NCBI RefSeq assembly: GCF_019192965.1
Contig: NZ_JAHTKU010000013.1
Span: 1-64,000 of the forward strand
Length of the DNA stretch: 64,000 nucleotides
DNA from: Nocardioides daeguensis
GTDB taxonomy: Bacteria; Actinomycetota; Actinomycetes; Propionibacteriales; Nocardioidaceae
Direction: 5' to 3'
Shown here in pieces: positions 59,650 to 62,478 of the stretch. Below the pieces are notes generated by a model. It was not told the DNA's origin. It made no database searches and was given only the letters and a program-made list of their open reading frames with translations. Both the position numbers and the translations under genes were made by a program. Each line of letters begins with the position of its first letter. Position 1 is the first letter of the stretch.

Positions 59650-59678
59650 CCGGTCCGCACCGTGGGGGTGCGGGCCGG
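59650..59678. terminator. Hairpin between membrane protein and sensor kinase genes
   Basis: CCGGTCCGCACC and GGTGCGGGCCGG form a 12-bp stem with one wobble and a 5-nt loop. It falls 18 bp after the upstream stop and immediately before the kinase -10 element, so it could terminate the upstream gene or bind a regulator. Confidence 0.45.
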
Positions 59679-59681
59679 CTG

Positions 59682-59687
59682 CAGAAT
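59682..59687 (+). promoter_or_regulatory. -10 element for the sensor kinase
   Basis: CAGAAT, 6 nt before GTG 59694. Confidence 0.4.
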
Positions 59688-59693
59688 GTGCCG

Positions 59694-61757
59694 GTGACCG
59701 TGCCGGTGCCGCTGCAGGCCGACACCCGCCCGCGCGGCCTGAGGGCCGTCGCGGTCCTCGTCGTCCCCGTCCTCTGCGTCGCCCTGGTCCCGCTCGGCGC
59801 CTGGCTCGACATGGGGGCTCCCGAGACCGGCCCGGGACCGGAGATCGCCGGTGGGCCGGGCTGGCCGTGGCAGAGCCTCGGGGCGGCTCTCGGCGTGCTC
59901 GCCGGGATCGTGCTGCTCCACGACCCCCGCCAGAAGTTCGGCTGGCTGCTGGCGTTCTCCGGCCTGTTCTGGGCGCTCGACGGGCTCTCGCAGAGCTACG
60001 TCCAGGCCGGGCTCGGCGCGACCTCGGCCTGGCCCGGGATGACCTTCGCGCTGTGGTTCCTGCTCCGGTTCAGCTCCTACCTCACCTCGGTGACCGCGGT
60101 GACGCTGCTCGTCTTCCCGACCGGCCGCTTCCTGCCGGGCCGGTGGACCCCGGCGTCGTGGTGCGCGGTCGCCGCGATGGCGCTCAGCGGGGTGGCCTTC
60201 ATCGTCGTGCCGTCCGAGGGCGACGAGGCCCTCGCCGGCCTGCCCCCGGGCGTCGACGCCGACCCGACCACCCTCGGCCTCCTCGCCGGCCACGAGGCAC
60301 AGGTCTCCTCGCTCGGCCTGGCCCTCGGTGCGGCCGGGTTCGTCTTCTCCCTGCTCACCGTCGTGGTCCGCTACCGGCGCTCGGAGGGGCTCGAGCGCGA
60401 CCGGATGCGCTGGCTGCTGTGGAGCGTCGTGGTCATCGTGGCCGTCGTCGCGGTGACCGTCGCGGTCGACGTCCCCGGCAGCACCTTCCTCGGGGCGGTG
60501 TCCGCCGCCCTCGTCCCTCCCGCGGCGATGACCGTCGCCATCGTCCGGCCCACCCTGGTGCCGATCCAGGACCTGCTCAGCCGCACCGTCGTGCTCGCCG
60601 CGATCCTCGCCGTGCTGGTCGCCGCCGACGCCGCCGTGCTCGGCATGCTCACCCTGGTCCTCGACGACGAGCTGACCCAGGCGCAGGTCGTCGCGGTCGT
60701 GCTCGTCGTCTGTGTCTTCCTCTACGGGCCCCTGCGCCAACGGCTCTCCGCCGGGATCCGCCGGGTGATGCTCGGCGAGCGCGGCAACAGGTACGACGCC
60801 GTGGCCGGTCTCGCCTCGACGCTGGAGAACACCGACGACACCGTCGAGCAGCTCGCCGCCGTCGCTCGAGCCGTGGCGTCCGCGTTCGCCGTCCCGTTCG
60901 TCAGTGTCGAGGTCGACCGGGGCCACGGCGAGCGGCTCGTGACGACCTTCGGCGAGCGGCCCGCGGAGGTGCGCACGCTGCCGATCACCTGGCGTGAGAC
61001 GACCATCGGTCGGCTGGTCCTCCCGGCCAAGGGGTTGCGCAGCCGGCTCACCGTCCGTGACGAGGAGCTGCTCGGCGACCTGGTCCGGCAGGCCGCGACC
61101 GCCGCCCGCACCAGCCAGCTCGCCGAGGAGGTCCAGCGGAGTCGCGAGCGGCTGGTCACCGCCCGCGAGGAGGAGCGGCGCCGGATCCGGCGCGACCTGC
61201 ACGACGGCTTCGGCCCCGCGCTCAGCGGCATCGTCTTCCAGCTCGAGGCCGCCCGGATGACCGTCGACCGCGACCCGGCCCGGGCCCGGGCCCAGCTGGA
61301 GACGATCAGCTCGCAGGTGCAGGAGGTCGTCGCCGACGTACGACGCCTCGTGCACGACCTGCGTCCGCCGGCCCTCGACGACCGCGGCCTGGTCGGCGCC
61401 CTGCGCCAGCAGGCCGAGCACCTCGCCGTACCCCTCGCCGTGACGGCGCCCGACGACCTGCGGCTGCCGGCGGCGGTCGAGGTGGCGGCGTACCGGATCG
61501 CGGGGGAGGCGCTCACCAACGTCGCCCGGCACGCGGGTGCCCACGGCGCGCGCCTGCTGGTCGAGACCGCCGGCGACACCCTCGTGCTCGAGGTCGCCGA
61601 CGACGGCCGCGGCATCCCCGTCGACCGGGCCGCGGGTGTCGGCCTGGCCAGCCTGCGCGAGCGGGCCGCCGAGCTCGGCGGCACCACCACCATCTCCAGC
61701 CCACCCGGCGGCGGCACCGTCGTCCGGGCCCGACTTCCCCTGAGGAGCCCTGCATGA
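59694..61757 (+). CDS. NarL-type membrane sensor histidine kinase
   Basis: A 687-residue kinase. About eight membrane helices occupy residues 15-335. A GAF-like region follows (about 360-450, LASTLENTDDTVEQLAAVA), then the HisKA_3 dimerisation helix EERRRIRRDLHDGFGPALSG near 498 with phosphorylatable His in RRDLHDGFG. The HATPase_c domain has GEALTNVARHAGAHGA near 605 and DDGRGIPVDRAAGVGLASLR near 640. The membrane-spanning input region suggests sensing of a lipid-phase or envelope signal. GTG is set by CAGAAT upstream. Its cognate regulator starts 62 bp downstream via a 22-codon bridging ORF. Confidence 0.9.
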   Translation: MTVPVPLQADTRPRGLRAVAVLVVPVLCVALVPLGAWLDMGAPETGPGPEIAGGPGWPWQSLGAALGVLAGIVLLHDPRQKFGWLLAFSGLFWALDGLSQSYVQAGLGATSAWPGMTFALWFLLRFSSYLTSVTAVTLLVFPTGRFLPGRWTPASWCAVAAMALSGVAFIVVPSEGDEALAGLPPGVDADPTTLGLLAGHEAQVSSLGLALGAAGFVFSLLTVVVRYRRSEGLERDRMRWLLWSVVVIVAVVAVTVAVDVPGSTFLGAVSAALVPPAAMTVAIVRPTLVPIQDLLSRTVVLAAILAVLVAADAAVLGMLTLVLDDELTQAQVVAVVLVVCVFLYGPLRQRLSAGIRRVMLGERGNRYDAVAGLASTLENTDDTVEQLAAVARAVASAFAVPFVSVEVDRGHGERLVTTFGERPAEVRTLPITWRETTIGRLVLPAKGLRSRLTVRDEELLGDLVRQAATAARTSQLAEEVQRSRERLVTAREEERRRIRRDLHDGFGPALSGIVFQLEAARMTVDRDPARARAQLETISSQVQEVVADVRRLVHDLRPPALDDRGLVGALRQQAEHLAVPLAVTAPDDLRLPAAVEVAAYRIAGEALTNVARHAGAHGARLLVETAGDTLVLEVADDGRGIPVDRAAGVGLASLRERAAELGGTTTISSPPGGGTVVRARLPLRSPA

Positions 61758-61829
61758 GCACCCCACGACGTTCTTCTCCTCCGCTTCGCTCCCCCGAACA
61801 ACGCCGCAGGGACCCCGCATGAGCACCCC
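61752..61829 (+). repeat. 13-bp direct repeats bracketing a short insertion before the response regulator
   Basis: GCATGAGCACCCC occurs at 61752-61764 and 61817-61829. Between them are 52 bp containing TTCTCCTCCGCTTCGCTCCC. The repeat contains the start codon and first codons of the response regulator, as if a 65-bp segment had been inserted or duplicated at the ATG. Confidence 0.75.
61754..61822 (+). CDS. 22-codon bridging ORF between kinase and response regulator
   Basis: Begins with an ATG overlapping the kinase stop (ATGA), encodes [20 protein letters not shown] and PA, and stops at a TGA that overlaps the response-regulator ATG in the same ATGA fashion. Its first four residues copy those of the regulator. 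It would carry ribosomes from the kinase to the regulator, preserving coupling that the 65-bp insertion would otherwise break. The peptide itself is probably not functional. Confidence 0.5.
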
Positions 61830-62478
61830 GATCCGGGTCGTGGTGGTCGACGACCACCAGATCGTCCGCGACGGACTCACCTCCCTGCTCGGCGCGCTCG
61901 ACGGCATCGAGGTCGTCGGCTCCGCCTCCGACGGCCGCGAGGCGCTGCACGTCGTCGAGGACACCGCCCCCGACCTGGTGGTGATGGACATCCAGATGCC
62001 GCACCTCGACGGCATCGAGGCGACCCGCTTCCTCACCGGCCGCAACCCCGCGCTGCGCGTGGTCATGCTGACCATGAACGAGGACGACGACACGGTGCTG
62101 AGCGCGATCCGGGCCGGCGCCTGCGGCTACCTGCTCAAGGGCGCGGGCGCCGACGAGGTGCAGCACGCGATCCGCTCGGCCGCCGCCGGCGGGATGGTGT
62201 TCGGCGCCAGCCTCGCCGCCAAGGTCGCCGGCTTCTTCGCCGGCGCCCTCCCGGCGCAGCGCACCGACGACGAGCCGTTCCCCGAGCTCAGCGAGCGCGA
62301 GCGCGACGTGCTCCAGCGGATCGCCGCAGGGCGCTCCAACGACGAGATCGCCGCGGCCCTCTACGTCTCGAACAAGACCGTGCGCAACACGGTCTCGGCG
62401 ATCTACGCCAAGCTCCACGCGACCGGTCGTGCCGACGCCATCGTCAAGGCGCGGGAGGCGGGCTACGGCCGCGACTGA
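61819..62478 (+). CDS. NarL/FixJ-family response regulator
   Basis: A 219-residue regulator. The receiver domain (residues 5-120) has [14 protein letters not shown], phospho-acceptor Asp in [13 protein letters not shown] (near 56), and MLTMNEDDD and [12 protein letters not shown] for the conserved Thr and Lys. The LuxR-type HTH (about 150-215) is [20 protein letters not shown] then [17 protein letters not shown]. It pairs with the sensor kinase immediately upstream. Targets are unknown; the neighbouring membrane protein, cgoX and hemQ are candidates by position. Confidence 0.93.

Follow-up and report, generated by a model that had tools for sequence, protein, structure and literature searches.

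The window analysed here, i.e., a stretch of 64,000 nucleotides from Nocardioides daeguensis (contig NZ_JAHTKU010000013.1), carries a sensor histidine kinase gene followed by a LuxR-type response regulator gene, with a 65-bp insert at their junction (Table 1). The initial annotation had described a 13-bp direct repeat bracketing the insert, an ATGA at both ends and a 22-codon mini-ORF ending on the regulator ATG, and all of this is confirmed in the sequence. The window contains exactly two copies of the 13-bp repeat, GCATGAGCACCCC, which begin 65 bp apart at 61752 and 61817. The Shine-Dalgarno-like AGGAG, now located upstream of the mini-ORF, would ancestrally have been that of the regulator. 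An Rfam scan of the junction region gave no relevant match.

Table 1. Features of the kinase/regulator junction in the window
Feature	Position	Strand	Basis
Sensor histidine kinase gene, 3' part (HisKA_3, HATPase_c)	59664..61757	+	ORF, Pfam, orthologues
AGGAG, Shine-Dalgarno-like	61743..61747	+	sequence; orthologue L020, which has no insert, carries it at the same place
Left copy of the 13-bp direct repeat GCATGAGCACCCC	61752..61764	+	sequence
Left ATGA: kinase stop and mini-ORF start (ATG 61754-61756) overlapping	61754..61757	+	
65-bp insert, one copy of the dispersed DTGA repeat	61754..61818	+	position within the repeated ATGA ambiguous
Mini-ORF, 22 codons and stop (TGA 61820-61822)	61754..61822	+	sequence
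Kinase stop TGA	61755-61757	+	kinase ORF ending: CCT GCA TGA
Repeat core of the insert, CACCCC...ACCCCG	61759-61817	+	
Imperfect palindrome, left arm CCCCACGACGTT	61761..61772	+	
Imperfect palindrome, right arm AACGCCGCAGGG	61800..61811	+	
Right copy of the 13-bp direct repeat, contains the regulator start	61817..61829	+	
Right ATGA: mini-ORF stop and regulator start (ATG 61819-61821) overlapping	61819..61822	+	
Response regulator gene, LuxR-type (Response_reg and GerE)	61819..62478	+	ORF, Pfam

A dispersed palindromic repeat

We found that the insert, which had been taken for repeat-like DNA, is one copy of a dispersed repeat family present at unrelated loci, and the arrangement at the junction is thus far beyond chance. 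The 96-bp junction stretch has 12 BLAST matches within its own genome, where the covariance model R1 (with which the window insert scores 95.3 bits) detects at least 17 copies; the relatives G030 and G088 yield 46 and 35 matches, respectively. In Nocardioides, the repeat is 65-74 bp long. Its wider consensus is ATGANCACCCCACGACGTTCTNCTCCCCCGCTNCGCTCCTCCGNACAACGCCGCGGGGACCCCGNATGA, and the element is usually free of stop codons in every forward frame. R1 matches were obtained in 40 of the 297 Actinomycetia genomes and 22 of the 114 genera. Hosts identified by name include many species of Nocardioides, Marmoricola endophyticus and some actinomycete MAGs. Outside its own family, the repeat mostly measures 57 nt including both DTGA (also 60), and shorter related forms are found in other actinomycete families. 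No copy was found in the plasmid and phage collections, and the literature searched, mostly that outside subscription journals, yielded no description of such an element in Nocardioides.

The ends of the repeat form an imperfect palindrome. Nine of the 12 arm positions pair in the window copy, and the consensus hairpin contains 11 pairs, five of them with double compensatory changes. Over 70 copies, arm pairing amounts to 649 vs 629 for re-dealt arms (s.d. 2.9), an excess to be read knowing that related copies can exceed shuffles.

Several loci show more complex arrangements. Four head-to-tail copies with a 65-bp period constitute a potential VNTR locus in G088 (C1:1047859-1048119), the corresponding site of G030 holding a nested element, and head-to-tail arrays are also present in L007, L101, L110 and L296. 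Two loci, L116 (G030:C1:1789123-1789260) and L275, contain an element of this kind inserted within another copy, where there is no DTGA. Loci L154 and L155 carry a shorter related repeat, ATGAGATCACCCGATTCGAGTG...CGAACAGGGACCCCGAAATGA, of 60 nt and flanked by DTGA, which may represent a sister family. Finally, the site of copy L005 is occupied in the relative G014 (L140/L129, C18 about 675760-675860) by a different insert with paired CTGCGGTTTGGTCCCAAACCGCAG palindromes, beginning at ATGAGC.

Empty sites and the limits of the insert

Orthologous junctions devoid of the insert were found in relatives. In the closest orthologue, L020 (94% protein identity for the kinase, 95.5% for the regulator), the junction reads CTGAGGAGCCCCGCATGACC, with a 4-bp overlap and no insert, and the junctions of L022, L023 and L024 agree with it (...GCATGA...); the flanks of these four empty junctions are 87-94% identical at the DNA level. 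The spacer is thus not common to all relatives, and the two historical proposals made from the window, i.e., that the DNA was inserted at the start codon of the regulator and that kinase and regulator ancestrally overlapped by 4 bp, are supported. The alternative to a gain at the window site, a precise loss from several relatives, is formally possible but less simple. Ten further empty orthologous sites were recovered with flank queries (L008, L009, L010, L047, L054, L064, L076, L102, L104 and L107), each presenting a DTGA where the element sits, and most being stop/start overlaps. We rejected L061 as an empty site, its G030 counterpart looking like a deletion remnant of the element. In G025 (L027), the kinase stop is followed, at this same junction, by a separate and longer insert of the kind described here.

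On the contrary, the proposed 13-bp target duplication did not survive comparison with other copies, whose two flanks share only DTGA, sometimes with 1-2 bases more. In the clean empty counterparts (L047, L102, L104, L107 and L010), the sequence common to both ends is likewise DTGA or one or two bases more. GCACCCC or a similar sequence is the element's own usual left end at other sites, and the target-like part of the left 13-bp copy is (GC)ATGA only. At the regulator, GCACCCC matches codons 2-4 (Ser-Thr-Pro), where the empty relatives have different codons. A CACCC-like right flank is also seen in L061, L081, L096 and L110, and it is possible that the element has a sequence preference for insertion wider than DTGA.

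The frame of the mini-ORF and the competing readings

The main sample comprised 81 copies from three genomes. DTGA is present at the left end of 66 copies, at the right end of 58 and at both ends of 53, the rates for random positions at the same loci being 7.8%, 6.2% and 0.8%, respectively. The target is not strict: 15 of the 81 copies lack the left DTGA, and copies occupy non-DTGA sites, including the two nested ones (L116 and L275). In 49 of the 53 two-DTGA copies, where about one third would be expected, the mini-ORF is open, has a length divisible by three and terminates precisely at the right DTGA, although this count overstates the number of independent events, copies being related and some orthologous between G030 and G088. 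Mini-ORF lengths are 66, 69, 72 and 75 nt, and the DTGA-to-DTGA distances are 53, 56, 65, 68, 71 and 74 bp, i.e., 2 modulo 3. This distance, combined with the usual absence of stops in any forward frame, makes the mini-ORF end on the downstream start. The same relay was observed in 79 of the 94 copies of a second sample, which are likewise not independent and for most of which the search pattern itself imposed the left TGA, and, outside the family, in 13 of 15 copies inspected, where the ends of R1 favour DTGA and do not force the frame. The 65-bp offset had been supposed to restore ribosome hand-off by chance; however, the frame-preserving length is family-wide, so that this outcome is built into the element and is not luck.

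The genes on either side are mostly read in the same direction as the element: in 60 of 66 copies, the frame that ends with the left TGA stays open over 100 codons or more, as does the frame that starts with the right DTG in 51 of 58. Two copies of the window's own genome form in-frame fusions with a downstream gene. L003 (from 1503 onward; G000:C2:178273) has lost its right DTGA and reads in frame into a second response regulator gene, adding an N-terminal extension, the insert being absent from this site in the relative L142. The other copy, L006 (from 1501 onward; G000:C32:4253), likewise continues in frame into the gene that follows, which encodes a membrane protein (ResB-like by eye), and the relative L132 has no insert there.

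In our preferred reading, which we hold to be highly probable, the insert is a small palindromic repeat of mobile type, lacking any protein gene, located at DTGA stop/start overlaps and providing a frame-kept ribosome relay. This reading is built on what was observed: a dispersed repeat family, sites that are empty in relatives, flanking DTGA, a relay kept in frame, the use of three frames and a co-varying hairpin. The element would enter, or survive at, DTGA stop/start overlaps between co-directional genes, in sense orientation, leaving a DTGA on each side; the left DTG would then open a mini-ORF ending exactly on the downstream start. A ribosome arriving at the kinase stop could probably re-initiate on the mini-ORF, read its 22 codons and re-initiate on the regulator. 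Because ribosomes could pass in this way from kinase to mini-ORF to regulator, the insertion could be tolerated where it would in other circumstances break the coupling of kinase and regulator. Mobility as the route of dispersal, and selection for tolerance or any fitness effect of the insert, are what this distribution suggests.

The frames themselves weigh on the role of the peptide. Between DTGA and CACCCC, the left spacer has 1 to 5 bases, and its changes in length are compensated at the right end or in the loop. Three different reading frames of the element are consequently in use (automatic assignment gave 35, 9 and 5 copies, with two peptides visibly misplaced), giving three peptide groups, one per frame, one of them MNHPTKFFASAALL... 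The mini-ORF might have encoded a functional leader peptide, and peptides are indeed alike inside one frame group; yet three unrelated frames of one and the same DNA would be translated depending on the copy, the insert is wholly absent from relatives, and we rejected this idea, which is largely refuted and retains only a very slight probability. The spacer peptide is thus not conserved, and spacers that vary on both sides while the total stays in frame point to selection on frame; the pattern speaks for selection acting on the frame and on where the mini-ORF stops, and not on the peptide. It also bears on the proposal that the element inserts anywhere, only insertions at stop/start overlaps surviving, with a relay that is a by-product irrelevant to downstream expression. 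Non-DTGA and nested copies exist (L116, L275 and L083), and a fixed length plus a DTGA duplication would give the frame automatically. However, length variants step by three (66, 69, 72 and 75; mostly 57 and 60 in other families) and the total remains in frame despite spacers varying at both ends, and we consider this proposal unlikely.

Less probable still is that the hairpin acts mainly on RNA, through stability or an internal promoter or terminator, kinase and regulator being expressed separately and not coupled. The co-varying palindrome arms would fit such a role, as would the Mycobacterium tuberculosis senX3-regX3 intergenic region, which contains MIRUs and was reported to drive separate regX3 expression (PMC4213456), but frame preservation is not predicted by it, and the palindrome of the window copy is imperfect, with 9 of 12 arm positions pairing. 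As for a spacer created by local duplication or slippage rather than by insertion of a dispersed element, the 13-bp direct repeat taken alone would suggest it, and head-to-tail arrays do exist (G088 C1:1047859-1048119; L007, L101 and L110); nevertheless, the intervening sequence is a genome-wide repeat found at unrelated loci, which refutes this origin. Under the preferred reading, i.e., a mobile-type repeat with a frame-kept relay, it is predicted that dozens of mini-ORFs lacking annotation are translated into peptides whose sequence is irrelevant. Dozens of copies elsewhere in Nocardioides and relatives share the mini-ORF arrangement at start codons. Occupied and empty sites together offer a comparative case of how a repeat can spread inside operons while leaving them unbroken.

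Comparison with RPE, REP/REPIN and MIRU elements

Rickettsia palindromic elements (RPE) are short palindromic repeats tolerated in coding contexts. The L003 and L006 copies, as in-frame N-terminal fusions, resemble them, whereas the DTGA repeat is mainly found at the DTGA where two genes meet and has a mini-ORF distinct from both. REP/REPIN sequences are short dispersed palindromes with a hairpin, as here, but the DTGA repeat occupies translated stop/start overlaps and not extragenic space. The Y1/RAYT transposase (PF01797) was detected in none of the five genomes searched, control genomes giving matches, and beyond this search no other candidate mobilising enzyme was identified.

The closest parallel in behaviour is with the MIRUs, which share the orientation of their flanking genes and which, as reportedly proposed by Supply et al. 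in 1997, spread into DTGA sites. According to a 2025 review (PMC12548453), MIRUs seem to be mobile, insert at start codons and carry an ORF that is coupled at -4 to the gene downstream; they measure 40-100 bp and form tandem copies (PMC2734929), and the senX3-regX3 intergenic region contains units of 77 and 53 bp (PMC4213456, PMC2453075). Here too, a short interspersed repeat (65-74 bp in Nocardioides) occupies many sites, at least 12 in its own genome and 35-46 in relatives, and lies at stop/start overlaps, as indicated by the empty sites and by DTGA at the left end (66/81) or both ends (53/81). In 49 of 53 copies, its internal ORF terminates at the start of the downstream gene with a -4 overlap, which would permit coupling; it follows the orientation of the flanking genes (upstream frame open in 60/66, downstream in 51/58); and it forms head-to-tail copies (four in G088 with a 65-bp period, as well as L007, L101, L110 and L296). 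Moreover, a well-known MIRU locus is a kinase/regulator junction, like the window site, and the 77- and 53-bp units are 2 modulo 3, as are the 53-74 bp repeats described here. The DTGA repeat differs by its presence in Nocardioidaceae and several other actinomycete families and by the documented use of all three frames. Judged on these traits, the DTGA repeat behaves like a MIRU in every behavioural feature tested, a likeness that concerns behaviour. The MIRU idea of an insertion tolerated via translational coupling can now be tested in bacteria from the environment, where natural replicates are numerous. More tentatively, and with slightly more doubt than confidence, we suggest that MIRUs could be one branch of an actinomycete-wide, previously undescribed superfamily of start-codon-invading repeats, selected for a frame-phased ribosome relay whatever the peptide.
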